Source: a virus
DNA: 23,321 nt
Reading direction: 5' to 3' (one strand)
IMG/VR virus record: IMGVR_UViG_3300009285_007947
Span: 1 to 23,321 of that record
Shown here one piece after another: positions 5,149 through 22,697 of the stretch; positions within the stretch are counted from its first letter, which is position 1; each line of letters opens with the position of its first letter. The notes beneath the pieces were generated by a model. The model did no database searches. It saw only the letters and a list, made by a program, of their open reading frames with translations, and was not told the origin of the DNA. Both the position numbers and the translations under genes were made by a program.

Positions 5149-5149
5149 T

Positions 5150-5287: not shown

Positions 5288-5288
5288 T

Positions 5289-6292: not shown

Positions 6293-6299
6293 AGAGTTG

Positions 6300-6349: not shown

Positions 6350-6425
6350 GAGTGCTTATCATTAATGCCGAACCCTTTTTAGCGGACGGGAATCCTAACC
6401 CGCGGGAAGGAAGGCCAAACAATTT

Positions 6426-7175: not shown

Positions 7176-7177
7176 TT

Positions 7178-7741: not shown

Positions 7742-7756
7742 TGAAAGAAATAATAT

Positions 7757-7983
7757 ATGGCAGTATCTGGCACTGGCACTTCGCGTGCCAACTTTGGGGA
7801 CTTGCTTGAACCAGTCTTCAGGAAGATATTCTTCGACCAATATCAGCAAATTCCCCAGATTTATAGTCAGATCTTCCATGTTATCGAGACTGACCGGCGT
7901 GATCTCCGCGATACTTCAGTGTCCGGTTTCGGACAGTTAGTGGAGACAACGGAAGGCGGTCCTATAACATACGAAGATCCCGT
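7757..7983 (+). CDS. major capsid protein, exon 1
   Basis: This is the first exon of the HK97-fold shell protein. It encodes 75 complete codons plus two bases of Val76, ending Y-E-D-P-(V). It begins MAVSGTGTSRANFGDLLEPV and contains F-G-Q-L-V-E-T-T-E-G-G-P-I, the N-terminal arm/E-loop pattern of Mu gpT-like capsid proteins. The frame continues past 7983 to a stop at 8138, but that extension is intron sequence with a group I core. Joining 7983 to 8765 restores P-V-Q-G-F-D-Y-T-Y-T-P-V-K-F-A-K-G and a 303-residue protein, a normal length for this family. The spliced junction is inferred, not observed. Confidence 0.87.
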
Positions 7984-8166
7984 TAATTTTGTAGCGGCTT
8001 ACAGTCGAGAGATTGTAAGAAAATCCTTTAAATTGCTGGAAACTCTCTTTGAGACAATCAGCAGCCAAATCAGAGAAATTAAAAAATCTCTGAGAGGTTC
8101 AGAGACTATAATAAGGACATCCTTCTGGATGATGGTATAGTCCGAACTCCATGGCGACATGGAGAG

Positions 8167-8712
8167 TCAAGTAGAAATATCTTGATCGTTCTTTGACAAA
8201 GTATTCTCAAACATGGCTATAAGTTTCGTGCGGTTGGTAGTTTTCAAGTCACCGAAGAGCAGGCGTTTCACGAAATAATTAAGCATTATTTCGTAATCAC
8301 GATGTTCTTCTCTGGTAGGAAACAATTTTAGATTATCAGGATGATTATTGATGGTATTTCCATCTTTATGATGTACGGTTTCTTCTGGTTTAAGTGATCG
8401 TTTTAATGTTTTCTCCATTACGAGACGATGTTCTCTAACACGTCGTCCATTAAGAGGAATCATTATATACTCCTTGGTAGAAAAATGTTTTCCGCCATAC
8501 AGTTTTCTATGTTGCCTACCACCCTTCCATCTACCATTCCATTTTCCCATATGGCGTTTGGAGTGAGAACGTCCCTTAAGACCGAATCGTAAAAAAAATC
8601 TTGCCACAGTTTCTCTTTGGACACCGCACATATCAGCGATCTCAGACATTAACATTTGGTCTTTAAAATAACGAGTTTTAAGCCATTGTTTATTACGATA
8701 CATTGTATTCAT
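8167..8712 (-). CDS. intron-encoded HNH homing endonuclease (antisense)
   Basis: This 181-residue protein is encoded opposite to the capsid gene within the intron. Residues 8-45 form a helix-turn-helix resembling the DNA-binding end of other phage HNH enzymes. The HNH core (about 80-140) shows R-E-H-R-L-V-M-E-K, the catalytic V-H-H-K-D-G (H114/H115), N-x-x-D-N-L-K-L-F, and E-E-H (136-137), matching the HNH_3 family. The enzyme would cut intron-less capsid alleles and drive intron spread. Its stop codon lies inside the P9.1-like hairpin. A 17-spaced promoter lies directly upstream, with the predicted start on the ATG at 8712. A second Met codon occurs at residue 4. The opposite orientation is unusual for phage introns. 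Confidence 0.9.
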   Translation of the reverse strand: MNTMYRNKQWLKTRYFKDQMLMSEIADMCGVQRETVARFFLRFGLKGRSHSKRHMGKWNGRWKGGRQHRKLYGGKHFSTKEYIMIPLNGRRVREHRLVMEKTLKRSLKPEETVHHKDGNTINNHPDNLKLFPTREEHRDYEIMLNYFVKRLLFGDLKTTNRTKLIAMFENTLSKNDQDIST

Positions 8713-8714
8713 AA

Positions 8715-8788
8715 GTATAGTGTAATCGTAAGTGATTACTTTGTCAAGAATAGTAACAAAATTGTCAAGGATTCGATTACACCTATAC
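8715..8788. repeat. inverted repeat spanning the 3' splice site
   Basis: GTATAGTGTAATCG (8715-8728) in the intron is complementary to CGATTACACCTATAC (8774-8788) in exon 2 over fourteen pairs, with a single extra C. The 3' splice site (8764/8765) lies in the loop. In the same interval TTGTCAAG occurs twice, at 8741-8748 and at the true junction 8762-8769. The upstream copy is an in-frame decoy that would lead to a stop codon. The stem may mask or present the splice site. Confidence 0.65.
8719..8747 (-). promoter_or_regulatory. minus-strand promoter for the intron endonuclease
   Basis: On the minus strand, TTGACA (8742-8747, exact consensus) and TACACT (8719-8724) are separated by 17 bases. 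The predicted start, seven bases past the -10, is 8712, the A of the endonuclease ATG, so the message would be leaderless. An inverted repeat GTAATC/GATTAC (8722-8727 and 8734-8739) overlaps the -10 and spacer and could bind a repressor. Confidence 0.6.
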
Positions 8789-9449
8789 CCCAGTGAAGTT
8801 TGCGAAAGGATTCAAAGTAACGAAAGAAATGTGGGAGGACGATCTTTACAATATCATGACAAAGATGCCGTCCAAACTCGGTGACGCGGCGCGTCAAACC
8901 GAGGAAACAGAAGCAGCGGATATCTTTGATAATTCTTTCACTTTAGGCATTGGTGGCGATGGGTCGTATCTTTGCGTAACCAATCATGCTCGTGAAGACG
9001 GCGGTACGGTGCAGTCAAATAGACTTTCTGGAAATACTGCGCCTTCAGAAACTACTTTTGAAACGACGCTTGTCGGCATGAGAGGCACGCTTGATGCGAA
9101 GGGTCAAAAAATATTAGTGCGCCCCGACACGATTCTTATTCCAAAAGAATTGGAAAAGGAAGTGTTGGTGCTCTTGAAGTCTTCAGGAAGAACCGCTACT
9201 AACTACAATGAGATCAATCCCTACGAAGGGAGATTGAAGACGGTAGTGTGGGATTATCTTGATTTGACTCAAGCATGGTATGTGCTTGATTCAGGGCTTC
9301 ATCAGCTCAATTTCGTGTGGCGCATTCGTCCTGAATTCGGTCAGGATGAGTCATTCGATACGGATGTTGCACTTTATAAAGTGCGCGAGAGGTTCACGGT
9401 CGGGTTCTCTGACTGGCGCGGTGTCTATGGTTCGACAGGCACTCAATAA
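8765..9449 (+). CDS. major capsid protein, exon 2
   Basis: The second exon supplies the last base of Val76 and 227 further codons. It encodes Q-G-F-D-Y-T-Y-T-P-V-K-F-A-K-G-F-K-V-T-K-E-M, then W-E-D-D-L-Y-N and A-A-R-Q-T-E-E-T-E-A-A-D, continuous with exon 1 and typical of Mu gpT-like HK97-fold capsids. Downstream come the P- and A-domain strands, such as I-L-V-R-P-D-T-I-L-I-P-K and W-Y-V-L-D-S-G. There is no in-frame stop from 8765 on. A GTG at 8793 could be mistaken for a gene start, but it is Val inside the exon and has no ribosome site. The C-terminus is G-S-T-G-T-Q. Confidence 0.9.
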
Positions 9450-9463
9450 TTGATTTTTGCCTT

Positions 9464-9598
9464 ATGAAATGTCCAACTTGCGGAGCTATTATCAACAAAT
9501 GGTATCTGTATGGGATAGATCCTGAGACTGCTGACGCATGTTGCGATAATTGCAAGCATGAACGCAAGGCGAAACCAGCAAAGATAGAGGAGAAATAA
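9464..9598 (+). CDS. 44-residue zinc-ribbon protein
   Basis: This short ORF after the capsid gene encodes M-K-C-P-T-C-G at its start and C-C-D-N-C-K at residues 26-31. Two CxxC pairs (C3/C6 and C27/C30) can bind one zinc, and a Lys-rich tail follows. The size and pattern fit a free-standing zinc ribbon. The stop is three bases before the next ATG, and its last codons carry that gene's ribosome site (GAGGAG at 9587-9592), so translation is probably coupled. The target is unknown. Confidence 0.65.
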   Translation: MKCPTCGAIINKWYLYGIDPETADACCDNCKHERKAKPAKIEEK

Positions 9599-9601
9599 AC
9601 T

Positions 9602-10300
9602 ATGTCTGCTCCCAAACTTTATACGGAGCGAGAATTGCTGGAACGTATTGCGTATCTTGGTCCTAATCCGCATACCGCGGGTGAGGCGACTGTGCGATCG
9701 TATACATGGTCTGGTGCGGTCACTGAAGCAGCCGTGTGGACTCCGCAGTCTGGGAACCGATACGTTGTATCTAACATTGTAGTGAGTGCTTCCGCGGCAT
9801 GTACGGTAACGCTCATGGATGAGGTAAACGACGGCGATCATATATTCTTTTCGCTTTCAATGGCGGGAGATTCGTCTGTCGTAGTTCCTTATCCCATTCC
9901 CCGTCCTTCACGGGCGGTGGATACCGTGATGCGTATTACCACTTCTGCGACGGGCGGCACCGTTACAGTGTATGGCTGGGAAACTGGCATAAGCGTTGAA
10001 ACGACGTCGACTTCTACTTCATCGAGTTCTAGCTCATCGAGTTCTAGCTCATCGAGTTCTAGTTCTAGTACATCGATTTCTAATTCATCGAGTTCTAGTT
10101 CTTACTCCTCGAGTTCTAGCTCGTCTAGTTCTTCGAGTTCGTCGAGTTCATCGATCAGTAATTCGACAAGCTCTTCATCGAGTTCTTCGATTTCTGAAAC
10201 GACGAGTTCCTCGAGTAGTATATCTGCGACATCGTCTTCATCGTCATCCAGTTCGGAATCTCAATCTTCCAGCTCTATCTCGCAGACATCAACTGGTTAA
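9602..10300 (+). CDS. virion-type protein with poly-serine tail
   Basis: This 232-residue protein has two parts. Residues 1-130 look like a compact beta-sandwich (V-S-N-I-V-V-S-A-S-A-A-C-T-V-T-L and T-V-T-V-Y-G-W-E) of a kind seen in small head or tail surface proteins. Residues 131-232 are almost wholly Ser with some Thr, Ile, Asn and Glu. Both TCN and AGY serine codons are mixed throughout, which argues for selection on serine rather than simple repeat slippage. There is no signal peptide or anchor. It has a good ribosome site (GAGGAG). The tail could be a flexible spacer or a dense O-glycosylation acceptor, which is interesting given the glycosyltransferases that start 67 bases downstream. 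No family name can be given with confidence. Confidence 0.8.
   Translation: MSAPKLYTERELLERIAYLGPNPHTAGEATVRSYTWSGAVTEAAVWTPQSGNRYVVSNIVVSASAACTVTLMDEVNDGDHIFFSLSMAGDSSVVVPYPIPRPSRAVDTVMRITTSATGGTVTVYGWETGISVETTSTSTSSSSSSSSSSSSSSSSSTSISNSSSSSSYSSSSSSSSSSSSSSSSISNSTSSSSSSSISETTSSSSSISATSSSSSSSSESQSSSSISQTSTG
10019..10063 (+). repeat. 15-bp tandem repeat in the serine tract
   Basis: TCATCGAGTTCTAGC occurs at 10019-10033 and 10034-10048, with a one-base variant at 10049-10063. Degenerate copies continue to about 10260. The unit is five serine codons, so gain or loss of units keeps the frame and changes only tail length. This makes the tail length a likely site of strain variation. Confidence 0.75.
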
Positions 10301-10316
10301 TAGCCAGAACCATCAA

Positions 10317-10345
10317 GGGGGAGCAGAGCGTTGCTTCGCTCCCCC
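10317..10345 (+). terminator. strong GC hairpin between head operon and glycan operon
   Basis: GGGGGAGC (10317-10324) pairs with GCTCCCCC (10338-10345), with a smaller AGC/GCT stem inside. No T-run follows, so it is not a textbook intrinsic terminator. Its location, just after the Ser-rich gene and immediately before the next promoter, suggests it ends or protects the head transcript. It also overlaps the place where a -35 of that promoter would be. Confidence 0.5.
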
Positions 10346-10351
10346 TGTGGG

Positions 10352-10360
10352 TGGTATAAT
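10352..10360 (+). promoter_or_regulatory. extended -10 promoter of the glycan cassette
   Basis: TGGTATAAT is a perfect extended -10 (TGnTATAAT). A weak -35 (TTGCTT at 10331-10336, 18-base spacer) lies inside the hairpin. The predicted start, seven bases past the -10, is the A of the ATG at 10367, so the first glycosyltransferase would be read from a leaderless message. Confidence 0.65.
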
Positions 10361-10366
10361 TCCAAT

Positions 10367-11680
10367 ATGGAACAAAAGCGCGTTGCAATTTTTTCAACAT
10401 TTTATACCATAGATCCTTCTTATTCTTTGAATAATGTAGTGGAGGATCAAATTTCTATGTTCGTGAACAATGGATATTCCATTGTTTTTTTAGCTGATGA
10501 AGCATTTGAACCGAAGGGGATTTATGCGCATCCTATGGTTATATTAAGGAAATTACCGAAAGCTCAACGCGATAATTACGGCAATCTGAATAATGATTGG
10601 AAGATGGAGACTGGTCGGATGTATGAAGCATTAAAAGTTCATTTAGCAGATATCGATGTGGTATTGGCGCATGATATTACTTTGCAATGCGCTCATATTG
10701 TTTTCAATATCGCTTCACGCCGATTGGCAATAGAACGCCCTGATTTGCTTTGGATTCATTGGTGCCATTCAGCGACCTCGCCTTCCATTCATTGCAATAT
10801 TCCTGAAGCAAGTGAATTGATAAAGCCAAAATTTCCAAATTCAGTAGTGGCATATCCAAATGATTGGGATCGCCCGCGTGTGGCAAGGAATTATCATTAT
10901 GAATTGGATGAAGTATTCTGTGTTCATCATCCGACTGATTTGGCTGAATATTTCGGATTTCATGAATTGACGCGGCAACTTATCAAAGAGAAAGACTTAT
11001 ATTCTGCCGATGTGATCAATGTGTATCCTTGCCGATTGGATCGCGGAAAACAAGTCGAGTACAATATCCGCATGATGGCATCAGTGAAGCGGACAGGAAG
11101 AGACATGCGTTTGATTATCATGGATTTTTCTTCAACAGGAGATGATAAATTGGCATATCGAGAAACATTTTATAAACGGCATGGTGATGGCGGATTGGTG
11201 GAACTGGCAAAATCATGGGGATTGGAGGAAAAAGAGATCACATTTACTTCGATGTGGAAACCGGAAACGAACTATTCTTGTCCACGGCAGATGGTGAAAG
11301 ATTTATTCCTTCTTTCCAATATATACATTCATCCTTCGACTTCGGAAACGTATTCTTTAGTAACGCAGGAAGCGATACTTTGCAAGAATTTTTGCATTTT
11401 GAATCATCATTTCCCGCCCATGCGTAGCATTTATGGAGATAAGAATGTGCTTTATGAGCCATTTGGTTCTGCGGTGGATGCGTTAAGCGGCGATAATGGT
11501 TCAACGCAACTTAATATCCATGACGAAGAAAAGCATTTTTTGAATCTTGCGAATAAGATCAATTATTTTATTGAAAATAATCCAGTGTTGGCAGAGCATA
11601 CATTTATTCGCAAATTCAGGAATCCCGATTATGTGTTTAAACATGAGATTGAGCCGTTAATTAATAGGACGAAATTATGA
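10367..11680 (+). CDS. GT4-type (GT-B) glycosyltransferase
   Basis: This 437-residue protein is a two-domain GT-B enzyme. The N-terminal Rossmann domain begins R-V-A-I-F-S-T-F-Y. The C-terminal donor domain starts near V-I-N-V-Y-P-C-R-L-D-R-G-K (a version of the GT4 GRLxxxKG motif) and contains H-P-S-T-S-E-T-Y-S-L-V-T-Q-E-A with the E-x7-E pair at E327/E335 that contacts the nucleotide sugar. The frame extends upstream to a TTG at 10331, but the ATG at 10367 is chosen because the promoter -10 ends at 10360. This is the first gene of the cassette, and its stop overlaps the next start (ATGA). The sugar donor is unknown. Confidence 0.88.
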   Translation: MEQKRVAIFSTFYTIDPSYSLNNVVEDQISMFVNNGYSIVFLADEAFEPKGIYAHPMVILRKLPKAQRDNYGNLNNDWKMETGRMYEALKVHLADIDVVLAHDITLQCAHIVFNIASRRLAIERPDLLWIHWCHSATSPSIHCNIPEASELIKPKFPNSVVAYPNDWDRPRVARNYHYELDEVFCVHHPTDLAEYFGFHELTRQLIKEKDLYSADVINVYPCRLDRGKQVEYNIRMMASVKRTGRDMRLIIMDFSSTGDDKLAYRETFYKRHGDGGLVELAKSWGLEEKEITFTSMWKPETNYSCPRQMVKDLFLLSNIYIHPSTSETYSLVTQEAILCKNFCILNHHFPPMRSIYGDKNVLYEPFGSAVDALSGDNGSTQLNIHDEEKHFLNLANKINYFIENNPVLAEHTFIRKFRNPDYVFKHEIEPLINRTKL

Positions 11681-12462
11681 GTGAAAACACGTTTTCTATT
11701 ATCATGCCAACTTGTCAAAGAAAGAATCTGATGCAACGGTCTATTCTCTCAGTGTTTAATCAATGGTATCAGAATTGGGAATTGATTGCGGTGGATGACG
11801 GTTCAACTGATGGGACATGGGAGAAATTGCAGGAATATGCGGCGAAAGAACCACGAATGAAAATTATTAAGCATGAGGTGAGGAAACAGAGATGTGCAGC
11901 AATTAATACAGGCATGAGAGCCGCAACAAATGATTGGATTTGTATTTTAGAATCAGATGATGAATATTTGCGGAATTATTTAAATAGTTTGAATTGGGCA
12001 ATAAATGAACATCCACAATATCGTGTATTTCATTTTGGAGCATTAGTGGTAAGGTTAAAATATTGTTCTGTAAGAGAAACACCGAATTATAAAGAACAAG
12101 GGGATGGAATGGAATCAATCAAAAGTGGAAAGTTGGGGATGGGAAGTTTTATATTCAAACGCGAATTATTAAATGAAATTCCTGATCTTTATTTATTTGA
12201 AACTGGCAGTCCATACAAATTTGCGGATTATTATAAAGATAAATTTCCTGAATTTTTGGAAATGTATGGACCGAAATATATGGATGGAGGGAAGGAATTA
12301 GGGAATCCTTGGGGAAATGATGCCGTGATGATGTATCTTTTAACAAGAAAAAATAAAAGCAAGGCATTGCCATTTTTTACTTATGTAAATTATATCCGCC
12401 GTTCTGGATTTATGAATCAAGATGATGACAAGCCGGAGGTTATCCGTTTTTTAGCACGATAG
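11677..12462 (+). CDS. GT2 glycosyltransferase
   Basis: This 261-residue GT-A protein has the classic family 2 layout: F-S-I-I-M-P-T-C-Q-R-K at the N-terminus, nucleotide-binding V-D-D-G-S-T-D-G-T at 39-47, and the metal-binding L-E-S-D-D-E-Y (D94/D95). There is no transmembrane helix, so it is a soluble enzyme. The C-terminal half (G-G-K-E-L-G-N-P-W-G-N-D-A-V-M) holds the acceptor/base region. It couples to the previous gene by an ATGA overlap. A 28-base gap with GGAAGAA follows before the next gene. Confidence 0.88.
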   Translation: MSENTFSIIMPTCQRKNLMQRSILSVFNQWYQNWELIAVDDGSTDGTWEKLQEYAAKEPRMKIIKHEVRKQRCAAINTGMRAATNDWICILESDDEYLRNYLNSLNWAINEHPQYRVFHFGALVVRLKYCSVRETPNYKEQGDGMESIKSGKLGMGSFIFKRELLNEIPDLYLFETGSPYKFADYYKDKFPEFLEMYGPKYMDGGKELGNPWGNDAVMMYLLTRKNKSKALPFFTYVNYIRRSGFMNQDDDKPEVIRFLAR

Positions 12463-12490
12463 CGGGTGCTCCAGGAAGAATTATAGAAGT

Positions 12491-13423
12491 ATGAAAATTC
12501 AAATTATTGCACTTTCGAATCATCTTACCTACGGCGGGATGCGGCAGCGTCTTGAATGGGGATTTAAACAAATAGGTCATGAAACAGTAGAAGGGAGTCC
12601 TGATGTGGTATTGGTAATTGGTCAATCAGCTCTATGGAATGACGTAAAACAATATGGAGTTCCTGTATATCTCTGGTGTCATGGTGTAGATATAGGAAAT
12701 TTTGAAAGCGCTAATAATAAAAAATTGAGAACAGTGTATGATAACTGTGCAGGAGTAGCATATCAGTCAACATTTGCCCGTAATATGACATGGCGGGCGT
12801 TTGGAGAGAAAAAAGGTTCGATTATTTTTAATGCGGGGATACCTAATTTCGGATCTATATATCCGATATGTCTCCCAGGAGGACGAATCGATGTCGCAAC
12901 TACGGCAATTTGGCGAGCTTGGAAACGTTTGCCAGAAACTGAAAGACTGGTACGCGAAGCGAATGATCAAGGCAGGAATATCCATTTGTGGGTTGGCGGT
13001 AAAGAGGGTGATTCTGGATCTCCTTTCATCCATTACATGGGCATGCTTCATGATTTTGAGCATTATCATAAGTGTCATTTCTATCTTCAATTATCGTTCT
13101 GCGATTATTCTCCAGGTACTGTGGGTGAGGCTCTCGCAATGGGACTCCCAGTCCTTACCGTCAATTCTGGAGGTGCTAAAGAAATTGTGGACGGAGCAGG
13201 AATCGCATTAGATAATGATCCGATACCAGAAGGGTCTATAAATGTGAATGATGAACGGAATATTCCAAAGATTAATACTGATAATTTTTGGCGCGGGTTT
13301 AATCAGATGACGCGGGAGGCGTATGAATTTTATCGCAATAAAGTCATTGAACGGGTAACGACAGTGGCAAATGCTGAATATAGCGCTCGACAATTTATCG
13401 ATTTATTTAATGGTTTAGAATGA
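12491..13423 (+). CDS. GT4-like (GT-B) glycosyltransferase
   Basis: This 310-residue enzyme has a short N-terminal domain (M-K-I-Q-I-I-A-L-S-N-H-L-T-Y-G-G-M-R-Q-R-L) and a C-terminal GT-B donor domain. The donor domain includes H-L-W-V-G-G-K-E-G-D, then D-Y-S-P-G-T-V-G-E-A-L-A-M-G-L-P-V-L-T and G-G-A-K-E-I-V, the usual nucleotide-sugar loop of GT4 proteins. It is smaller than a typical GT4 enzyme (350-400 residues). It has no membrane segment. GGAAGAA lies 12 bases upstream. It is likely a later step in the same glycan. Confidence 0.83.
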   Translation: MKIQIIALSNHLTYGGMRQRLEWGFKQIGHETVEGSPDVVLVIGQSALWNDVKQYGVPVYLWCHGVDIGNFESANNKKLRTVYDNCAGVAYQSTFARNMTWRAFGEKKGSIIFNAGIPNFGSIYPICLPGGRIDVATTAIWRAWKRLPETERLVREANDQGRNIHLWVGGKEGDSGSPFIHYMGMLHDFEHYHKCHFYLQLSFCDYSPGTVGEALAMGLPVLTVNSGGAKEIVDGAGIALDNDPIPEGSINVNDERNIPKINTDNFWRGFNQMTREAYEFYRNKVIERVTTVANAEYSARQFIDLFNGLE

Positions 13424-13427
13424 ATAT

Positions 13428-13964
13428 ATGGCGAGAATTAATAATCTCATTTCACAATTTATTCCCTATAATAATACTTGGCGGTCGTGGCTTGATATTG
13501 GCACAGGAAATGGATTGGTGGCGCAAGAAATGCGCGGTTTTAATTCAATGCCTCGTAAAATAGCGATGGATGCGGGATCATTTCCTGAAGATGTGCAGGA
13601 AGGTATGGGTCATTATTTAGATGCTTCATGGGAAAAGATACATGAAAATTTTACTCAGAATGGAAAATTATGGAATGAAACATTTGATGTAGTGACATTG
13701 ATGGATGTAATTCAATATTATCCGAAACCAGATGCGACTGTTCTTTTAGATCATTTAGACGAAATTGTCCGTCATCTCATTGTTATTTGGACACCTGATG
13801 GATTGTATCCTCATCCAGGGCATGTATCTGGTTGGGTTGCTGATGAATTTCTAGATCGCGGATATAGCGTGTATAAAGCGATTGGTTTTCATCAAGGTCC
13901 TCCGCAAGTAGGAAATGGACTTTTAGCGTGGAAGAATCCTGAATGGAGAAAGATTTATATATGA
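13428..13964 (+). CDS. class I SAM-dependent methyltransferase
   Basis: This 178-residue protein has motif I at W-L-D-I-G-T-G-N-G-L-V-A (21-32), an acidic strand-2 end (A-M-D-A-G), and F-D-V-V-T-L-M-D-V-I-Q-Y-Y after strand 4. It is a small Rossmann methyltransferase of the Methyltransf_23/25 type. Set between glycosyltransferases, it probably methylates a sugar or a glycan end rather than DNA. No target-recognition domain is present and the catalytic N/D-P-P-Y of DNA amino-methyltransferases is absent. It starts four bases after the previous stop. Confidence 0.8.
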   Translation: MARINNLISQFIPYNNTWRSWLDIGTGNGLVAQEMRGFNSMPRKIAMDAGSFPEDVQEGMGHYLDASWEKIHENFTQNGKLWNETFDVVTLMDVIQYYPKPDATVLLDHLDEIVRHLIVIWTPDGLYPHPGHVSGWVADEFLDRGYSVYKAIGFHQGPPQVGNGLLAWKNPEWRKIYI

Positions 13965-14530
13965 AAGAATTCCCTGATCAAGAAAAACTTTACAATGAAC
14001 GTTGTGAACGGTTAAAGCTCTCGCGTGGGTTGTATAAAGAAGATTTGTTGCATCTTTTAGAGCAAGCGATGTATATTCCTTTAAATGGCATATATGTAGA
14101 AATTGGCGTGGCGAATGGATCGTCGCTTATGGCAATATCATCATTTCGTCCTGATGTTTATTGTTTTGGCATTGAAGAAAATGAAGGATGCAAAGCGGAT
14201 AAAAATATTGAACAGGAAGGAATAAGAAATACGCAGATTTTATGGGGAAAATCTGAAGAGATTTGTAAAACATGGGATAAAGAGATTGATTTGTTGTTTA
14301 TTGACGGTGAACATTATATGAAGAATATATTTTGGGATTGTTTAGGGTGGTTTCCGTTCGTGAAACAGGAAGGCACAATCATGTTTCATGATTATGAAAA
14401 GCCTGAAGAAGGGAAACATGAGGTGGGGAAAGCAGTGCAGATTTTCAGGAATCATCCGAAATATAAATGTATGATTCCTTCAGTGGATGAGATTATTTCA
14501 ACGAGCATGGTAATCTTGAAAAAGTTATGA
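13961..14530 (+). CDS. class I SAM methyltransferase (Methyltransf_24-like)
   Basis: This 189-residue protein is taken from the ATG at 13961, which overlaps the previous stop as ATGA and follows GGAG at 13945. An in-frame ATG at 13943 is less likely. Motif I is Y-V-E-I-G-V-A-N-G-S-S-L (45-56). Later motifs are C-F-G-I-E-E-N, L-L-F-I-D-G-E-H-Y and G-T-I-M-F-H-D-Y. The D-G-x-H and F-H-D-Y pairs are typical of the O-methyltransferase-like family found in polysaccharide and macrolide-sugar loci. It is a likely sugar O-methyltransferase in this pathway. Confidence 0.82.
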   Translation: MKEFPDQEKLYNERCERLKLSRGLYKEDLLHLLEQAMYIPLNGIYVEIGVANGSSLMAISSFRPDVYCFGIEENEGCKADKNIEQEGIRNTQILWGKSEEICKTWDKEIDLLFIDGEHYMKNIFWDCLGWFPFVKQEGTIMFHDYEKPEEGKHEVGKAVQIFRNHPKYKCMIPSVDEIISTSMVILKKL

Positions 14531-15108
14531 AACTCCATTTAGCGTCGGGAACTGTTTATTTGGAGGGATATCAGAACATTGATTTAGAAGGGGAATTGGC
14601 ATCAGAACATCCTGAATTAGTGGAAATTTGTAAAACAACTATTGATAAATATTATAAGTATCCGTTTCGGCAAAACATGTACAATAAGGTTGCGGATATA
14701 AAAGCAGATGTGAGAGATTTATTGATGTTTGCGGATGAGACAGTGGATGAGATATTATGCGTGAATTTGATAGATCATTTTAAAAGAGTGGAATTTAGGA
14801 AAACATTGTGGGAATGGTATCGCGTATTGAAACGTGGCGGTCAACTTATTATTGATATTGATGATCGAGAGAAACAAGCAAAAATGTTTTTGGAAGCGAA
14901 AACGGTAAAAGAATTGGAATGGGGATTGCGTCTTTTATATTGTCATCATCGCACGCTGTACGATACGCATTATTGGGGATATACGCGGAAATATCTACAA
15001 TGGATATTGGAACAAACTGATTTTAAAGTGCTTTGGATTCGGGATGATTACATTGTGCATGATATGTATCCAAATTTTCAGATTTGCGCGGAGAAAATTG
15101 TTTTATGA
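14527..15108 (+). CDS. class I SAM methyltransferase (Methyltransf_11-like)
   Basis: This 193-residue protein begins K-L-H-L-A-S-G-T-V-Y-L-E-G-Y-Q-N-I-D-L-E, the variant motif I / post-I (L-x-L-G-C-G...W-x-N-I-D) common in methyltransferases of glycan loci. It continues with D-V-R-D-L-L-M-F-A-D-E-T-V-D-E-I and W-Y-R-V-L-K-R-G-G-Q-L-I-I-D, the motif-III region of ubiE-like enzymes. It is the third methyltransferase in a row, and the three are too different to be recent duplicates. It couples by ATGA at both ends. The acceptor is unknown. Confidence 0.82.
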   Translation: MKLHLASGTVYLEGYQNIDLEGELASEHPELVEICKTTIDKYYKYPFRQNMYNKVADIKADVRDLLMFADETVDEILCVNLIDHFKRVEFRKTLWEWYRVLKRGGQLIIDIDDREKQAKMFLEAKTVKELEWGLRLLYCHHRTLYDTHYWGYTRKYLQWILEQTDFKVLWIRDDYIVHDMYPNFQICAEKIVL

Positions 15109-15770
15109 ATAAAACATCGATTATCGTAGTAGCGTATGATCGTTTAAAAATTTCTCGCCATATTACCAGTGCGTGTTTAGGAACAGTACAAGCATATACT
15201 GATAGAGAAGAATATGAGTTGATATTGATTGATAATGATCCTGTGGGAGAATTGAACAGAAAATATAATATTATTGAATTGGATAAACATATTACGATAC
15301 AAGATATAGGATATGCGGCATCGGTAAATATGGGCGTTAAATTATCTACTGTATCTTATCCGTATATATGTCTTTTGCATAATGATGTGTTTGTGCAGGA
15401 AGGCTGGCTCCAAACGCTTATTCAAGAAATGGAATCACAAAATGGAGATGTGATTATGCCAGGACAGAATCCTTATACACGAGAACAAATTAAAGGATTG
15501 CGGAAAGGAGAAAATATAAACATGTGGAATGATGCGGGATTGATGCTCATGAGACGGTCTTTATTTGAAAAAATGGGAGGGTACGATGAGAGATTCAGGG
15601 CAATATATCATCAATGGAGTTTTGGGAGAAGATTAGGAGAAGCAAACAGTATAATGTGTTATACCAATAAAACTATTATTATCCATATCGGTGCTGCAAC
15701 GCTTTTAAATGATGAAAATTATTTTCATGAACGGCATAATATAGAATCGCCTTTTACTCAAGAATTATGA
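15105..15770 (+). CDS. GT2-like glycosyltransferase
   Basis: This 221-residue product is taken from the ATG at 15105 (ATGA overlap, with GGAG at 15090). The upstream in-frame start at 15084 lies inside the previous gene. It is a GT-A fold protein with T-S-I-I-V-V-A-Y-D-R, L-I-L-I-D-N-D-P, and the metal-site variant L-L-H-N-D-V-F at 90-96. N-D-A-G-L-M-L-M-R-R-S-L-F-E-K-M-G-G-Y-D-E-R-F resembles the acceptor loop of rhamnosyltransferase-like GT2 enzymes. The usual final E-D is not obvious, so activity is probable but not certain. Confidence 0.83.
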   Translation: MNKTSIIVVAYDRLKISRHITSACLGTVQAYTDREEYELILIDNDPVGELNRKYNIIELDKHITIQDIGYAASVNMGVKLSTVSYPYICLLHNDVFVQEGWLQTLIQEMESQNGDVIMPGQNPYTREQIKGLRKGENINMWNDAGLMLMRRSLFEKMGGYDERFRAIYHQWSFGRRLGEANSIMCYTNKTIIIHIGAATLLNDENYFHERHNIESPFTQEL

Positions 15771-16582
15771 AAATATCAATTATCATTCCCGTATACGCAA
15801 AAACCGACAAAGGTTTTGTTAAACTTTGTCTTGAATCTATCCATAAGTATTCAAAAGAAAAACATGAAATCATCGTATGTGTGAATCCCGCATTGAATAT
15901 TGAAGGATATGAAGATTTGCCCGCAACATATGTAATTGCTTCAGATATTCAAGGCCAATGGCACGCGAACAATGTTATGGTGCGGAAAGCGAGCAATGAA
16001 TGGATAATGCTTATTGATGATGATACAGTTTTGCCGTCGAATTGGGAGGAGATATTTGAGCACTTGGAGAGCGATGTAGTTTCAATGAATTGCATGGAAC
16101 CAGATCGTTTTGGGAGGGGTTATGCGCCGCCATTTGTAAAATGCGATTGTGGAACCACTCCTGATACATTTGATTGGGTAAAGTTTGAGAAGATGGCATT
16201 GGAGTTGCGGGAGGAGAAAATGGAATCAGGGAATTCTTATCCATTTCTTTTTAAAAAATCTCTTTGGGAAAAGATTGGCGGATGGGATGAACGATATGAT
16301 CCATGGGGTTCAAATGGCGATTCGGACTGGCTCTACCAGTGTGTGCTTGCTGGTGTTGAGCCTCTACGTTGGCGTGGAGTGTTTGCGTATCATATTAGTC
16401 AGATCTCAGGAACATTTACGCTTCCTGAGGCTGATGATTATTTGGCACGTAATCGCAGTATGTTTGAAAAAAAATGGGGAATTGTACGAGTAGGGAGTCC
16501 TGATATCTGGTATGCAAAATTAAATTTACCAAATCCAAATTTAAGATTTAAACCTTCTTGGACTGATCCTAAATTTGTATGA
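15767..16582 (+). CDS. GT2 glycosyltransferase
   Basis: This 271-residue GT-A protein begins K-I-S-I-I-I-P-V-Y. It has the metal motif M-L-I-D-D-D-T-V-L-P (D84-D86) and the acceptor loop W-E-K-I-G-G-W-D-E-R-Y-D-P-W-G-S-N-G-D-S-D-W, which carries the catalytic-base Asp cluster. It has ATGA overlaps with both neighbours, so it is an internal cistron of the cassette. No membrane helix is present, so the acceptor is likely a soluble or protein-bound glycan. Confidence 0.87.
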   Translation: MKISIIIPVYAKTDKGFVKLCLESIHKYSKEKHEIIVCVNPALNIEGYEDLPATYVIASDIQGQWHANNVMVRKASNEWIMLIDDDTVLPSNWEEIFEHLESDVVSMNCMEPDRFGRGYAPPFVKCDCGTTPDTFDWVKFEKMALELREEKMESGNSYPFLFKKSLWEKIGGWDERYDPWGSNGDSDWLYQCVLAGVEPLRWRGVFAYHISQISGTFTLPEADDYLARNRSMFEKKWGIVRVGSPDIWYAKLNLPNPNLRFKPSWTDPKFV

Positions 16583-17550
16583 ATATCTCAATGTTTTATA
16601 ACGATGGATTGAATGAAGGTCAAGTGAGAGATGAAGTTAATATTCACCATACTTTATCTTATTATGGAGGTCACACTTATCCTAGATGGGAAGAATTTTG
16701 GCCTATCAAGGTTACAGTGAATGATGAGGAATCAGTTCTTGAAGCTGATCTTATTCTTGCATTTAATGGTAATCAAGTGAGTCCCGAAAAGATACGTGAA
16801 TGGAAATCAAAAACTAAAGCACCAGTGTGGTTTTGGACATTCGATAATTGTGATCGCCGTCCTGCAATTTATAATATTATTAAAGAATGTGATTTATGGT
16901 TAGGCGAAGAATTGGGAAGAAGAGAACGTTTTAAAAAAGAAGGATTACCATTTTATTATTTTCCTCTTCATGCGGGAGATGAAAAAGTATTCCGTCCTTT
17001 TGATCCGCCGATTGATCATACTAAACCTTATGATGTTACTTTCATGGGAACTCCTTATGGAGCGGAAATGAGGAAAGAATTGCTTCTTGCCGTGCAAGAA
17101 AAATTTGATTTGCATGTATGGGGCAATAATCCAGAAAGTTGGAAAAATTGGGGAATTAAAAATGTGCATGGTCCTGCATTTGATCAAGCAGCAAATGAGA
17201 TTATTAATCAAAGTAAAATAATATTAGGAGTATCTAATTGTTCATGTGAAGGATATTGGTCGGTACGTACTGCTTGTGTAATGTTGGCAGGAGGTTTTCA
17301 TATTGTGCGCTTTACTCCTCAAATGGAAAAAGAATGTGGTGATGGTGTTATATATTTTTCAGATATTGAAGATTGTTTAAAAAAAATAGAATATTATTTA
17401 GATAAAGATTCTCCCTGTTCTTGGCAGAGAAGAATTCATATACAAGGAAGAGCTAATAATATTGCTTATAATAAATTAACATTTCAAATTCGATGTCATG
17501 AATTGATGGTGTTGTTTCAACATCGTAATCGTTTGATGCAAATGATATGA
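16579..17550 (+). CDS. CgeB-like GT-B glycosyltransferase
   Basis: This 323-residue protein resembles CgeB/DUF3880-type glycosyltransferases, known from spore-coat and maturation glycosylation and from phage genomes. Features are a short N-terminal domain with V-W-F-W-T-F-D-N-C-D-R-R, then Y-D-V-T-F-M-G-T-P-Y-G-A-E-M-R-K-E at the start of the C-terminal domain. I-L-G-V-S-N-C-S-C-E-G-Y-W-S-V-R-T-A-C-V with L-A-G-G-F-H-I-V replaces the usual R-x-F-E...G-G loop. CgeB relatives often act on proteins, which would fit modification of a virion protein. It overlaps the HNH gene start by ATGA. Confidence 0.78.
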   Translation: MNISMFYNDGLNEGQVRDEVNIHHTLSYYGGHTYPRWEEFWPIKVTVNDEESVLEADLILAFNGNQVSPEKIREWKSKTKAPVWFWTFDNCDRRPAIYNIIKECDLWLGEELGRRERFKKEGLPFYYFPLHAGDEKVFRPFDPPIDHTKPYDVTFMGTPYGAEMRKELLLAVQEKFDLHVWGNNPESWKNWGIKNVHGPAFDQAANEIINQSKIILGVSNCSCEGYWSVRTACVMLAGGFHIVRFTPQMEKECGDGVIYFSDIEDCLKKIEYYLDKDSPCSWQRRIHIQGRANNIAYNKLTFQIRCHELMVLFQHRNRLMQMI

Positions 17551-18098
17551 AGAGAATATTTTATAGAAATAAAAAATTAAGAAGATGTTCGAAATGCAAG
17601 AAATTTAAATTAAATAGTTTAAAATTTTTCCGTTATCGAAATGAAGAAAATAGGAATAAAGAATTTCGTTCTTCGTGTCGTATGTGTGAATTGAAGTCAT
17701 GGACAGAAGATTGGTATAAGAAAAATAAAGAATCAAGAAAGCAATATAAGAGTCAGGATTGGTATTTAAAATATAATAGGATATATGCTAAAAAATATGC
17801 ATCTTTACATAAAAAAGAACGGTCATTTTGGCAAAGGAGAAGGGTTATTCGGAGATTGGAAAATGGAGGTAATCATACATTAGATGAATGGGAAGATTTG
17901 AAAAAAAAATTTGGCTATAGATGTCTATGTTGTAATAGGAAGGAGCCTTTTATTAAATTAACTGCTGATCATGTGATACCGTTAAATTATGGAGGAAGAG
18001 ATGATATAAAAAATATTCAACCATTATGCTTACCATGTAATTGTAGAAAAAGATTTCAAATAATTGATTTTCGAAAATTATATGGAAGAAAAATATAG
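17547..18098 (+). CDS. free-standing HNH endonuclease
   Basis: This 183-residue protein is very Lys/Arg-rich. The N-terminal zinc motif is C14-x2-C17...C44-x2-C47 (the CxxC...F-R-S-S-C-x-x-C type common in phage HNH proteins). A basic linker follows, then the HNH fold at 122-166: C126/C129, L-T-A-D-H-V-I-P (catalytic D141-H142), N-I-Q-P-L-C-x-x-C (N156, C161/C164). It is markedly AT-richer than its neighbours. It sits neatly at a gene junction: its ATG overlaps the CgeB-like stop (ATGA) and its end overlaps the aminotransferase start by 17 bases. It is probably a homing endonuclease that targets this locus in related phages. Confidence 0.88.
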   Translation: MKRIFYRNKKLRRCSKCKKFKLNSLKFFRYRNEENRNKEFRSSCRMCELKSWTEDWYKKNKESRKQYKSQDWYLKYNRIYAKKYASLHKKERSFWQRRRVIRRLENGGNHTLDEWEDLKKKFGYRCLCCNRKEPFIKLTADHVIPLNYGGRDDIKNIQPLCLPCNCRKRFQIIDFRKLYGRKI

Positions 18099-20262
18099 AA
18101 TTCCTTTATTCTATCCTTATGTCAATGATGACATGAGAAATGAAGTGATGGATACTTTGCATAGTAGGTGGATAGGTCAAGGTGTAAAGGTAGACCAATT
18201 TGAGCAGGCGTTTGCTAAAAAATTCAATCAACAATATGTTCTCGCGTTTAATTCAGGAAGTTCAGCTTTGGAAACTGCGTATGAACTTGCGGGTATTCAA
18301 TTTGGTGATGAGGTTATTACAACGCCTTATACATGTTTATATGGAGAAGAACAGATACAATGTGAAAATGGAAAATATATTTCTATAAGAAAATTAGTAC
18401 AGGAAAAATATAAAGATAAGGTTTTATCTTATAATCAATTTACAAAAGAAATAGAATTTAAGAAAGTGATAGGTTGGTATAAATTTTTAAAAAAAGGAAA
18501 TGATTGGATAAAAATATCTCATCAGAAAGCGAGAAATAGTGTTCAGTGGAAAGAAGGAGTATGGTTAACAGGAGATCATAAAGTTTTTACCATACAAGGA
18601 TGGAAGAGAGCAGATGAATTGAATAAAAATGATAAACTTATTTTAGCAGAACCATCTCTTAATGATAAACAAAAAGAATTATTTGACGGAATGATGCTAG
18701 GAGATGGATATTTAAAATTATCTAATAATAAAAATGCATTATGTAGATTAGAATGTGTACACACATTTTCTCAGAAAGAATGGTTATTAATTAAAGAGAA
18801 GGCTTTTAATGGATTTAAGACTACTATTTATAATAAGAAAAAATATAAACAATCGAAAAAAGCGATGGGATTTTATATTCATTCTAATATTTCCATTCAT
18901 GGACAAAATAAGCGATGGTTAAAAAATGGGAAAAAAATAATTCCAAAAGATTTAAAATTAACTCCTCTTGTTATTGCAACGTGGTATTTAGATGATGGAA
19001 ATTTATATTATAAAAAGGGGGTATATCGAATATTAATTTGTACTGATTGTTTTAATTTTAAAGAAATATGTTTTTTAATAAAACAATTAAAGCAATTGAA
19101 TATAGACGCTTCTTATCAAAAGAATGGACGAGAAAAATGGAGAATATATATAGGTAAAAAAAATGAAGTAGATAAATTTTGTGGAATAATAGCACCATTC
19201 GTTCCTCCCTCAATGGAATATAAATTGCCTGTTCATTTAAAGAATAAATTTAATAAAAAAATGTGGGATTTAGGAATCGCTAATAGATTTACTGATAAGG
19301 TATATATTCATAAAGGGAAGCCTAAGAATTTGTCTAAAAGATTGAAATATGTTTACTGTATTGAAGTTGAGGATAATAATAATTTTGTATCAAAAAGTAT
19401 TATCCTTCATAACTGTACTGCAACGAATATACCTTTGCTTCGCATGGGTGCGCATTTGGTTTTTTCGGATATTCGTAAAGATACATTCAATATTGATTAT
19501 GGTGACGTTGAGAGGAGAATCACAGAAAAAACAAAAGCAATCGTTAATGTCCACATGGGAGGAATCGAATCAGTCATCCCGCGAGAAATGGAAGTGGGGT
19601 TGAAAGAACGCGGCATTAAAGTAATATCAGATGCGTGTCAGGCGCTTGGTGTATTTAACGGAGATTATGTATGTAATTCTTTCCAAGCGATCAAGAGCAT
19701 CACGACTGGCGATGGAGGTATGCTCACGGTATATGATCCTGAAGAGTATCGGGTGGCGAAGTTAAAAAGGTGGTTTGGGATAGATCGTGTAAAGAAACGG
19801 GCGGAAGGATGGCAAGCATATAAGGAGCGAGAGATGACTTTCGATATATTTCTTTTAGGCTATAAACGACAGATGACCGATATTGCCGCGGGAATGGGTT
19901 TAGCTGGTTTGAGGGTTTATGATGAGGTTTTGAGGCATCGGAAGGCGATTTTTGAGCGTTATAAGAACAATTTGAAAGAAATTAACGGCATCACTTTGAT
20001 TGATGGGGATGTAAATAAATATTGGTTAGTGACTGTTTTGGTCGAAAAACGCGATGAATTCGCCAAAATGTGCAAGTTTTATGATATTGAAACCAATATG
20101 GTGCATATTAGGAATGACGCATATAAAATATTCGGGGGACGCAGACATGATCTTCCAAACATGGATTGGGTTGAATCAAGATATACTTGTCTCCCAATCA
20201 ATATGAAGGTGAGTTTGGAGGATGTTGATTATATCTGCGATTGTATAAAGAAAGGATGGTGA
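18082..20262 (+). CDS. DegT/DnrJ/EryC1 sugar aminotransferase with intein
   Basis: This 726-residue precursor is a PLP enzyme that puts an amino group on a nucleotide keto-sugar. The 366-residue extein is normal family length. The N-extein has F-N-S-G-S-S-A-L-E-T-A-Y (the PLP phosphate site). The C-extein has D-A-C-Q-A-L-G, where the PLP-ring Asp lies, and Q-A-I-K-S-I-T-T-G-D-G-G with the Schiff-base Lys (extein residue 178). An intein interrupts T-T-P-Y-T / C-T-A-T-N, a conserved active-site region. The ATG at 18082 gives M-E-E-K-Y-R-I-P-L-F; a TTG six codons earlier is less likely. No 4,6-dehydratase or sugar-nucleotide synthase is seen here, so the host probably supplies the keto-sugar. 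Confidence 0.9.
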   Translation: MEEKYRIPLFYPYVNDDMRNEVMDTLHSRWIGQGVKVDQFEQAFAKKFNQQYVLAFNSGSSALETAYELAGIQFGDEVITTPYTCLYGEEQIQCENGKYISIRKLVQEKYKDKVLSYNQFTKEIEFKKVIGWYKFLKKGNDWIKISHQKARNSVQWKEGVWLTGDHKVFTIQGWKRADELNKNDKLILAEPSLNDKQKELFDGMMLGDGYLKLSNNKNALCRLECVHTFSQKEWLLIKEKAFNGFKTTIYNKKKYKQSKKAMGFYIHSNISIHGQNKRWLKNGKKIIPKDLKLTPLVIATWYLDDGNLYYKKGVYRILICTDCFNFKEICFLIKQLKQLNIDASYQKNGREKWRIYIGKKNEVDKFCGIIAPFVPPSMEYKLPVHLKNKFNKKMWDLGIANRFTDKVYIHKGKPKNLSKRLKYVYCIEVEDNNNFVSKSIILHNCTATNIPLLRMGAHLVFSDIRKDTFNIDYGDVERRITEKTKAIVNVHMGGIESVIPREMEVGLKERGIKVISDACQALGVFNGDYVCNSFQAIKSITTGDGGMLTVYDPEEYRVAKLKRWFGIDRVKKRAEGWQAYKEREMTFDIFLLGYKRQMTDIAAGMGLAGLRVYDEVLRHRKAIFERYKNNLKEINGITLIDGDVNKYWLVTVLVEKRDEFAKMCKFYDIETNMVHIRNDAYKIFGGRRHDLPNMDWVESRYTCLPINMKVSLEDVDYICDCIKKGW
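18334..19413 (+). mobile_element. LAGLIDADG intein
   Basis: This 360-residue, in-frame protein intron is in the aminotransferase. Residue 1 is Cys (C-L-Y-G-E-E-Q-I). Block B is L-T-G-D-H-K-V-F with H82. The homing domain has two LAGLIDADG-like motifs, F-D-G-M-M-L-G-D-G-Y (117-126) and A-T-W-Y-L-D-D-G-N (215-223). Blocks F/G are Y-C-I-E-V-E-D-N-N-N-F-V-S-K-S-I-I-L-H-N, ending His359-Asn360 followed by Cys+1. All splicing residues are present, so it is likely active. The DNA is strongly A-rich compared with the flanking extein, a sign of separate origin. Confidence 0.93.
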
Positions 20263-20507: not shown

Positions 20508-20953
20508 AAAGAAATCCTCCTCATTATTATGGTAAGGATCATCCTTCATGGAAAGGAAATAAAATTACTAATATAACATGGTTACATACCTGGTTAAGAA
20601 ATAATTATGGTTTTGCGGATCATTGTGAAAATCCTTCATGTGAAGATGAGTCAGATTGTTTTGATTGGTCGATGCTTCATAATAAAAAGGGCGATAATCG
20701 GAGAGCATGGTTCATTCAGTTATGTAGGAGTTGTCATTTAACGTATGATTATACTCCTGAACGTAATAAGAAAAAACGTCGTGCGATGCAAAAATTTTGG
20801 AGAAAAAATTCTAAATTGCGCGCCCGTTATAGAAAGGATTTTAAAGGAAGAAAAATTACATGGACTCAGGAGATACTAAAAAGTAGAAAAATAGGAAAGA
20901 AAAAGATGAAAAAAAGAAATAATATTATTAGTGGCTTAAAAAAGATAACATGA
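20504..20953 (+). CDS. free-standing HNH endonuclease
   Basis: This 149-residue protein is taken from the ATG at 20504; a TTG four codons earlier is also in frame. The N-terminus Y-Y-G-K-D-H-P-S-W-K-G-N is the start motif of a phage HNH family. W-L-H-T-W follows, then zinc ligands C41/C46 and C74/C77, W-S-M-L-H-N and L-C-R-S-C-H-L-T-Y-D. Beyond residue 82 is a Lys/Arg-rich tail likely to grip DNA. It is AT-rich like the other homing genes. Its start overlaps the stop of the glycosyltransferase relic and its stop overlaps the ATG of the complete glycosyltransferase, so it sits within one gene's former 5' end. Confidence 0.82.
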   Translation: MKRNPPHYYGKDHPSWKGNKITNITWLHTWLRNNYGFADHCENPSCEDESDCFDWSMLHNKKGDNRRAWFIQLCRSCHLTYDYTPERNKKKRRAMQKFWRKNSKLRARYRKDFKGRKITWTQEILKSRKIGKKKMKKRNNIISGLKKIT

Positions 20954-21867
20954 TCATCGCTGTTTTTGATGTTAATAATTTTCGTTTCACAAAAGATCTC
21001 ATTGCTCATTGGGAATCATTAGGTTATATTGTTTTGCGTGATAAAATGTTTGATCCTAAACTTTGTATAAATGCAGATGTTTTATTTTTTGATGATCTTG
21101 GGAATGATATTGCACGAGCATCACATGAGGAAGATAATATATGGAAACAAATTTCAGGAGGTCAATTAAAAAATAAAAAAATAATAGTTCGTTGTCATGA
21201 TATTACAGGATGGGTTGGAGCTGCAACTAATGTAAATTGGATATGGGTTCACGATTTAATTTTCGTTGCTCAGCATATACAGGATCATGTCGATTCTTAT
21301 ATGCATTTTGCAGAACGATATCCACATCTTAAAATCCATTCTATCAAGCATGGTATTGACGACAAGAAATTTACGTTTCGTAAACATTTCGATCGTAAAA
21401 TTGCATGGTTCGGCCCATTTAACGAAAAAAAATGTTTTGAACTTGCGCTTCTTGTTTTATTAAAACTTCCTAATTACGAATTGCACGCGGTGGGAAAAGA
21501 ATTACGAAATTGGCGCAGGGCGTATGTGTTGGATTTTATAAAGCGCAATAATCTGAAAGTTACCTTTTATGATGAAGTGCCAGATGTGAATGAATTTTTG
21601 GAAGATAAAACTTTTCTTCTTACTTCAGGATTTAAAGAAGCATTCGGGTATATCATCGGAGAAGCGGCAATGAAAGGGTTAATACCAGTAGTTCATCATT
21701 TTTATGGCGCGGAGAATGTTTGGCCTAAAGAATGGTTATGGGATGATCCAGAGAAGGCTTCTGCTAAAATTATGTATCCGACATATATACCAGAAGAATA
21801 TCGGCAATACGTCATTGATAATTATCCCTTAAACCGCATGTTGGCGGAATATGATGCTTTATTATGA
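20950..21867 (+). CDS. GT4-like (GT-B) glycosyltransferase
   Basis: This 305-residue protein begins M-I-I-A-V-F-D-V-N-N-F-R-F. Its donor domain has K-I-A-W-F-G-P-F-N-E-K-K, then L-T-S-G-F-K-E-A-F-G-Y-I-I-G-E-A-A-M-K-G with the E-x7-E pair typical of GT4. It lacks a membrane segment. The first 24 codons have a homologous relic upstream of the HNH gene (20445-20507), so the present 5' end may have been restored after the insertion. It has ATGA overlaps on both sides. The sugar is unknown. Confidence 0.82.
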   Translation: MIIAVFDVNNFRFTKDLIAHWESLGYIVLRDKMFDPKLCINADVLFFDDLGNDIARASHEEDNIWKQISGGQLKNKKIIVRCHDITGWVGAATNVNWIWVHDLIFVAQHIQDHVDSYMHFAERYPHLKIHSIKHGIDDKKFTFRKHFDRKIAWFGPFNEKKCFELALLVLLKLPNYELHAVGKELRNWRRAYVLDFIKRNNLKVTFYDEVPDVNEFLEDKTFLLTSGFKEAFGYIIGEAAMKGLIPVVHHFYGAENVWPKEWLWDDPEKASAKIMYPTYIPEEYRQYVIDNYPLNRMLAEYDALL

Positions 21868-22697
21868 AAGAAAATACATTTATTATTCCTCATCTTAATT
21901 ATGGAGATTTGCGTAAATCATTGGAGAAATTGCATAAACATACGCCTCCAAATTTTTATGTCATTTTAGTGGATCAAAATGAAGTTTATCAACAGGTTGA
22001 TGATTTGGTAGATGTTCATATAAGACCAAATCGTAATTTGGGATTTGCGAAGGCATGTAATTGGGGCATACGCCTGTCTGATACGCCTTTCGTAACATTA
22101 ATGAATGATGATGTGGAAATGTTAAATGTAAAATGGTGGGATGGGATTATAGAGACGTTCAAACGGTATGATAAACAGGCATTATGCGTGAATCCATCAT
22201 CACCGCGTAATCCTCGCGCTTCTGGAGATATTCCCGTGAATCATCCTGGATGGGATTATAAAGAGGAATTTACAGAAGAAGAATATGACAAAATGGTAAA
22301 AGAAATAGGAAAAGGCCATATAATTGATGGGATTTGTATGTGGTGTCCAGTATTTAAACGGGAAGCACTAGATAAAGTGAAAGGTAATATTCCTGGAGTA
22401 TGGTTGGATGAGGTGTTTTGGCCAGGCGGGGGAGAGGATTATGACATGAATAGAAGGGGATATTTAACGAAGAATGAATCTAATGAACTGCGTGGATATC
22501 GTTGTTTAGGTACAGGATTATCATTTTCATTTCACTGGTGGTACTCTACTGTCTCTCCTAAAACAGGCAAAACAGGCGTAAAAGACGCAGGAACCACGTA
22601 TTATGACAAATGGGCGGTGCACGGCGAAGGAATGCCTGATATTTATGGCAGAACGGGAAAACAAGAAATTATCATGAATACCTTGCGTGAGTTATAA
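21864..22697 (+). CDS. GT2 glycosyltransferase, rhamnosyltransferase-like
   Basis: This 277-residue GT-A protein contains R-P-N-R-N-L-G-F-A-K-A-C-N-W-G-I, a close match to the N-x-G-F-A-x-x-x-N-x-G motif of rhamnosyltransferase-like GT2 enzymes. It also has L-M-N-D-D-V-E-M (D82/D83, metal site) and W-P-G-G-G-E-D-Y-D-M-N-R-R (catalytic ED). It is the last cistron of the cassette, coupled by ATGA to the previous gene. Its stop lies just before the structured RNA region that closes the operon. Confidence 0.87.
   Translation: MKENTFIIPHLNYGDLRKSLEKLHKHTPPNFYVILVDQNEVYQQVDDLVDVHIRPNRNLGFAKACNWGIRLSDTPFVTLMNDDVEMLNVKWWDGIIETFKRYDKQALCVNPSSPRNPRASGDIPVNHPGWDYKEEFTEEEYDKMVKEIGKGHIIDGICMWCPVFKREALDKVKGNIPGVWLDEVFWPGGGEDYDMNRRGYLTKNESNELRGYRCLGTGLSFSFHWWYSTVSPKTGKTGVKDAGTTYYDKWAVHGEGMPDIYGRTGKQEIIMNTLREL

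Follow-up and report, generated by a model that had tools for sequence, protein, structure and literature searches.

The protein encoded by open reading frame (ORF) 9602-10300 ends in a tail made almost wholly of serine and threonine. We put the probability at roughly three in four that this tail is an O-glycan acceptor, primed by the product of the neighbouring glycosyltransferase (GT) gene, GT4a, and extended by the rest of the GT cassette. A preliminary description of this DNA had interpreted the tail and the cassette as a system for coating the virion with glycan; that interpretation is partly supported by the comparisons of related sequences presented here. The window is the whole 23,321-nt IMG/VR fragment IMGVR_UViG_3300009285_007947 (positions 1-23,321), and coordinates refer to it unless another record is named; L and G numbers are labels of the collected loci and records.

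The Ser/Thr-tailed protein and its gene

The window has the gene order of a tailed-phage late operon. TerL (1356) and the portal gene (2875) are followed by a GT2-like ORF (5594-6292), a probable scaffold gene (6426), an ORF without an assigned family (7178) and the major capsid gene (7757..9449, + strand; phrog_371). The capsid gene has two exons, with matches to PF25209/PF10124 on exon 2 (8793-9449); this structure is supported by alignment with intact relatives and by a group I intron. The intron that splits the gene (RF00028, 90 bits) lies at 7974-8164 (+), and an HNH endonuclease ORF is found at 8167-8712 on the strand opposite to the capsid gene. The tailed gene comes directly after the capsid gene, with a small zinc-ribbon ORF (9464-9598) between them. 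The cassette (10331-22697) and then a fibre-like ORF (from 22993) follow.

ORF 9602-10300 (+, ATG start) is real and in frame, and it encodes a 232-aa protein. An N-terminal domain of 132 aa (9602..9997, +) is predicted with low confidence to be all-beta; the proposed acceptor tail, defined by its composition, occupies 9995..10297 (+). The final 101 residues contain 74 Ser and 11 Thr (84% Ser/Thr), which bears out the earlier report of a nearly pure Ser/Thr tail of about 100 residues. The mixture of serine codons reported at the same time is also found: 52 are TCN and 22 are AGY, and there are 11 Thr codons. The other two forward frames across the tail yield only 1-3% Ser/Thr, and dinucleotide-shuffled tail DNA yields a mean of 26% and a maximum of 41%, compared with 84% in the real tail. 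Chance or a repeat artefact as the source of the tail was rejected on the evidence of the frames, the shuffles and, in homologous tails of a related carrier family, codon drift that keeps Ser/Thr (see below).

In-frame 15-bp repeats had been described in the tail and were thought to let its length vary. TRF does report a period of 15 bp at 10007-10101 (5.9 copies), but the repeats are degenerate (76% matches) and a 36-bp period at 10025-10132 scores better. Variation in length is plausible in that tails among the small carriers of relatives range from about 26 to about 125 residues; however, no length polymorphism was seen within the window phage, as its near-clonal relative L002 has an ORF of equal length.

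Pfam and PHROG searches with the N-terminal domain gave no match, and its AF2 pLDDT of 60.6 is too low for a structure search. When the domain was compared by hhalign with untailed ORFs of ~100 aa that lie 5' of GT4a in relatives, a weak match was obtained (probability 43%, E 2.4e-4); this is only suggestive of homology with these untailed small beta proteins. The tailed protein was also sought in isolate phages, with no match. By prediction it is probably a protein of the head decoration type.

Tails and GT4a in related phages

Relatives were collected via two anchors, the capsid gene and GT4a; all records are fragments. With only same-strand ORFs counted and the window's twin left out, a Ser/Thr-rich ORF is present at 37 of 55 GT4a loci, compared with none of 79 loci anchored on GT2e (an unrelated phage GT) and none of 48 random loci chosen by random 15-mer. 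When ORFs on any strand are counted, the figures are 41/56 for GT4a loci and 2/48 for random loci (Fisher p 6e-14); many loci share descent, so Fisher values overstate both independence and evidence. The lack of tails at GT2e loci shows that the link is with the GT4a family and not with GTs in general; a link to any phage GT was rejected on this control. Ser-rich genes and the cassette, which the preliminary description had paired, do therefore occur together in related phages, strongly and specifically. Of the two control loci that hold a Ser/Thr-rich ORF, one (L255:394-789, -) lies in the only random control record that has GT2 and GT group 1 genes.

The capsid family gives a similar distribution. 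Among records that extend at least 3 kb downstream, nine have both tail and GT4a, 24 have neither, two have a tail without GT4a and none has GT4a without a tail. The two exceptions are L136, which has GT2 genes on the opposite strand, and L005/L137, which ends ~6 kb past the capsid gene. On the GT4a tree, tailed loci are found on every main branch, with 9 label changes compared with 15 in shuffles. Lineage grouping by shared backbone genes was too lax, merging most loci, and was replaced by carrier families and the GT4a tree.

Six GT4a records that appeared to lack a tail were checked in further regions of their own contigs, and three of them have tails elsewhere. In G151 a tailed carrier lies just upstream, across the contig ends; in G147 and G149 the tails are farther off in the same record. 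The 31-kb fragment G146 was read completely and contains GT4a but no tail, and no tail was found in the further regions of G148 and G150 that were read.

Poly-Ser proteins are not confined to such loci. A DNA pattern for alternating Ser codons gave at least 120 stretches in viral contigs. In 49 records with real poly-Ser ORFs, GT4a was found in none, GT2 in seven and GT group 1 (GT4) in 12; in the controls, GT2 and GT group 1 were each found in 1 of 48. GTs are partly enriched in the poly-Ser records, yet most of these records show none, and they are longer than the controls; they are also fragments of unequal length, in which absence of a GT is weak evidence. Poly-Ser as a general sign of glycosylation is not supported by these counts (0/49 for GT4a, most records without recognised GTs), and glycosylation should not be read from a Ser-rich tail by itself.

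Tail carriers

Within the phage group of the window, the gene with the tail is preceded by the capsid gene and soon followed by GT4a, at a distance of 30 bp in the window itself and of 6-24 bp in L201-L203, where the tails are nearly naked (roughly 7-15 non-tail residues). Three main N-terminal types of carrier occupy this one slot: the window type, a ~45-aa type with the motif YxN...YDGTxW (between one and three genes in each genome) and a ~215-aa type that ends in TTTxP. In L127, L128, L131, L134, L135, L136, L184 and L188, two or three paralogous small carrier genes follow the capsid gene, each with a YxN...YDGTxW-like motif and a Ser/Thr tail.

The tail is also found on other proteins. L186, from a phage whose capsid protein is different, has next to its GT4a cassette a tailed homologue (8466-9011) that is 28% identical overall to the window protein. 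In L377, which contains GT4a, the major capsid protein (12286-13641, -; PF03864, Phage_cap_E, E 3e-29) has its own C-terminal Ser/Thr tail. Tails elsewhere are carried by a tail-assembly protein (phrog_1082) and a fibre-like protein (phrog_11585/7049). On the question of a place in the virion for the proposed acceptor, the window protein matches no family and is encoded after the capsid gene; the carriers of relatives include the capsid, tail-assembly and fibre-like proteins above.

The tails of the window and its close relatives are at the extreme C-terminus, with nothing beyond. Among more distant relatives of GT4a, most Ser/Thr stretches lie inside large proteins encoded several kb from it; the clean arrangement of a tail next to GT4a is not universal.

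Selection on hydroxyl residues

Selection was tested on 12 homologous tails of the ~215-aa carrier type. In these, 78% of aligned codon pairs differ; 61% of all pairs have synonymous changes only, 9% exchange Ser and Thr, and 7.5% have other changes, compared with 49% other changes in the N-terminal domain of the same proteins. Random single-base changes from these tail codons would retain Ser/Thr only 41% of the time. Switches between TCN and AGY are found in 381 Ser-Ser pairs, and all 12 tails share the same 11 Ser/Thr residues immediately ahead of the final x-P. Since the order of Ser and Thr is kept while the codons drift, selection in the ~215-aa carrier family acts on hydroxyl residues and to some extent distinguishes Ser from Thr. 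The preliminary description had suggested that serine itself is selected; in that family the selection is on Ser/Thr identity, while for the window's own tail the evidence is its composition. In L005 and L006, Thr recurs in the tail at a spacing of 3-4 residues (TSSTSSS heptads), and the TTTxP end is conserved in 12 phages.

A single natural comparison is provided by the isolate Microcystis phage Mwe-Yong1. A homologue of the ~215-aa-type domain is encoded directly after its capsid gene but has no tail, and no GT was found in the genome. Homologous Ser-rich proteins in phages lacking GTs had been named as evidence that would speak against a glycan coat; in this one case the carrier is present, and GTs and tail are both absent.

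These observations bear on the reading that ranks next, in which virion proteins bear the tail as a flexible, hydrophilic spacer or brush that receives no modification, and the enzymes of the cassette have another target. Ser/Thr-rich linkers and tails do occur in many phages without recognised GTs, and the internal stretches in distant GT4a relatives could be linkers. However, the C-terminal tails of the window and its close relatives have nothing to link. A spacer needs neither a conserved order of Ser and Thr under codon drift nor a specific partner GT, and the tail is missing from the carrier in Mwe-Yong1, where GTs are absent. We consider the spacer unlikely, though it deserves to be kept in mind.

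The glycosyltransferase cassette

Seven GTs had been described immediately downstream of the tail gene. The cassette does start 30 bp on, but it has eight GT-like ORFs, starting at 10331, 11677, 12491, 15084, 15767, 16579, 20950 and 21864; the GT2-like ORF at 5594-6292, upstream of the tailed gene, is a ninth. Three of the GT4-type matches (10331, 12491 and 20950) fall just under the Pfam curated cut-offs.

GT4a (10331..11680, +; PF00534, sub-threshold) is a predicted retaining GT-B glycosyltransferase. It is followed by GT2a, a GT2 glycosyltransferase (11677..12462, +; PF00535, E 3.6e-30), and by a GT4-like enzyme (12491..13423, +; PF13692, E 3.7e-5, below cut-off). Three methyltransferase ORFs (13428-13964, 13943-14530 and 14527-15108, +; PF13489, PF13578 and PF08241) come next; it is possible that the enzymes of this block (13428..15108) act in sugar methylation. 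Beyond these are two GT2 enzymes (15084..15770, +, PF00535, E 7e-9; 15767..16582, +, PF00535, E 2e-7), a CgeB-like glycosyltransferase (16579..17550, +; PF13524, E 1e-10) and a free-standing HNH endonuclease gene (17547-18098). A DegT/DnrJ/EryC1 sugar aminotransferase with an intein (18064..20262, +; PF01041, E 1.3e-63; PF14890; PF03161) suggests that the window phage may make its own amino sugar; the intein includes a LAGLIDADG endonuclease domain. The cassette ends with a second HNH-like ORF (20492-20953, no Pfam match), a GT4-like enzyme (20950..21867, +; PF00534, E 9.5e-6, just below cut-off) and a GT2 enzyme (21864..22697, +; PF00535, E 1.5e-11).

Between L002 and the window there are only 3 mismatches across 311-15766 (15.5 kb). 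From 15919 (15919-16548), inside the GT2 gene 15767..16582, the two diverge abruptly, by up to 35%. This break could reflect allele exchange or a mis-assembly (assembly chimera), and it gives a hint of possible glycan diversification.

The cassette might instead remodel a host surface polysaccharide, leading to superinfection exclusion or receptor change, with its closeness to the tailed gene being accidental. Pathways for surface polysaccharides often include GT2 and aminotransferase genes, and GT2a resembles TuaG, EpsE and WcaA at family level, far under their cut-offs. Against this, hydropathy analysis found a membrane-like segment in none of the cassette ORFs tested, so these ORFs include neither a flippase nor a polyprenol-linked transferase. 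The surroundings of the cassette are late structural genes (capsid genes precede it and the fibre-like ORF follows), and the linkage of GT4a is specific to tails; host polysaccharide is an improbable target.

Some phages glycosylate modified bases, and phage DNA is thus a further target with precedent. Among the genes of the window (a fragment), none was recognised as a base hydroxymethylase or nucleotide-modifying gene, and arrays of soluble GT2 and GT4 enzymes with sugar-modifying enzymes better fit the building of an oligosaccharide; we regard DNA glycosylation by this cassette as very improbable. Least credible of all is a tail that arose as a side effect of slippage at DNA repeats and serves no selected function: the window does have degenerate repeats of 15 and 36 bp, but the saturated synonymous change of homologous tails with Ser/Thr conserved contradicts this for the related carrier family, and across carriers the repeat units differ while the residues are the same.

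GT4a as candidate initiating enzyme

The AF2 model of GT4a (pLDDT 88.5, pTM 0.85) has a confident GT-B fold. Its best Foldseek matches are the retaining GT4 enzymes MshA and BshA (E 7e-15 to MshA), with TM-scores of only 0.3-0.4 and identities of 12-16%; the low TM-scores are probably due to a differing angle between the two domains. R238, K240, E339 and E347 (EX7E) are invariant across 19 divergent members of the family, and the enzyme looks catalytically intact. Fold, EX7E and basic phosphate-binding residues all agree with membership of GT4 (retaining GT-B). The conserved part of the protein starts near residue 13, and the true start may lie downstream of the annotated TTG.

A tblastn search with three GT4a members against 50,697 isolate phage records gave no match. 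When 84,980 genomes of bacteria and archaea were scanned, six GT4a loci were found, all on MAG contigs; at least one of these (L284) has phage tail-type genes to one side and genes of bacterial type to the other. A GT4a relative on a Luminiphilus MAG contig (L280:9701-11808) has no obvious phage genes nearby and is convergent with a gene for a Ser/Thr/Gly-rich protein; this locus is possibly a cellular relative of the system. The GT4a profile matched no solved chain at E 0.01, including any solved protein O-glycosyltransferase.

Proposed glycosylation module

In the proposed module, the Ser/Thr tail would act as a disordered multi-site acceptor on a protein expressed together with the head genes. 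GT4a would attach the first sugar to Ser/Thr residues of the tail in the host cytoplasm. The remaining GT2, GT4 and CgeB enzymes, the methyltransferases and the aminotransferase would then extend and decorate this sugar to give a short modified oligosaccharide. The glycan would be built before or during particle assembly, and the particle would carry a brush of short glycans. We infer the chemistry, the order of steps and the place of the window protein in the virion, as well as the purpose of the coat, which may be shielding, surface attachment or altered adsorption.

A wider reading is more tentative, and we hold it at somewhat less than even odds: the tail may be a transferable acceptor tag, placed on any convenient virion protein and served by a dedicated GT4 enzyme and exchangeable cassette genes. 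If so, near-clonal phages can bear different glycan coats. If the glycan-acceptor reading is right, a module that is readable from sequence alone marks a set of uncultivated phages with sugar-coated virions. The module would identify the acceptor as well as the enzyme that probably initiates; phage glycosylation would become testable in laboratory E. coli without phage culture, and a simple acceptor tag would be available together with its enzyme. It would also raise the question of which pressure outside the host selects phage glycan coats.

Comparison with known systems

To our knowledge, glycosylation of phage-particle proteins has been reported in few phages. The open literature was searched for Ser/Thr-tailed phage proteins beside GTs, and no paper was found.

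In the Fap1 system, a serine-rich adhesin is glycosylated by a GT cluster; a dedicated enzyme initiates on Ser, and GTs extend the glycan stepwise in the cytoplasm (PMC5207161). As in this SRRP/GtfA-GtfB system, the window encodes a serine-rich candidate acceptor beside a GT cluster; in contrast to it, the acceptor is a phage protein encoded among head genes and not a secreted adhesin. A GtfB-like partner for a GtfA-GtfB pair was not matched among the cassette ORFs, GtfA is absent from the best 50 Foldseek folds for GT4a, and no solved GtfA was matched by the GT4a profile. No accessory Sec genes for export were recognised among the ORFs searched. MshA and BshA (CAZy GT4) have the GT-B fold and EX7E in common with GT4a, but they act on small molecules and are only 12-16% identical to it.

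Virion glycosylation is known in mycobacteriophages Che8 and Rita (Freeman et al. 2023, Cell Host Microbe, cited in PMC11256854). A Che8-type system would have phage-encoded glycosyltransferases, and such genes are present in the window. Two differences seem likely. The acceptor proposed here is a long Ser/Thr tail on interchangeable proteins, mostly not capsid proteins; the proposed initiator would belong to a distinct GT4 family, for which three members gave no match in isolate phages. Virion glycosylation itself is known; the acceptor-tail form proposed here looks new.
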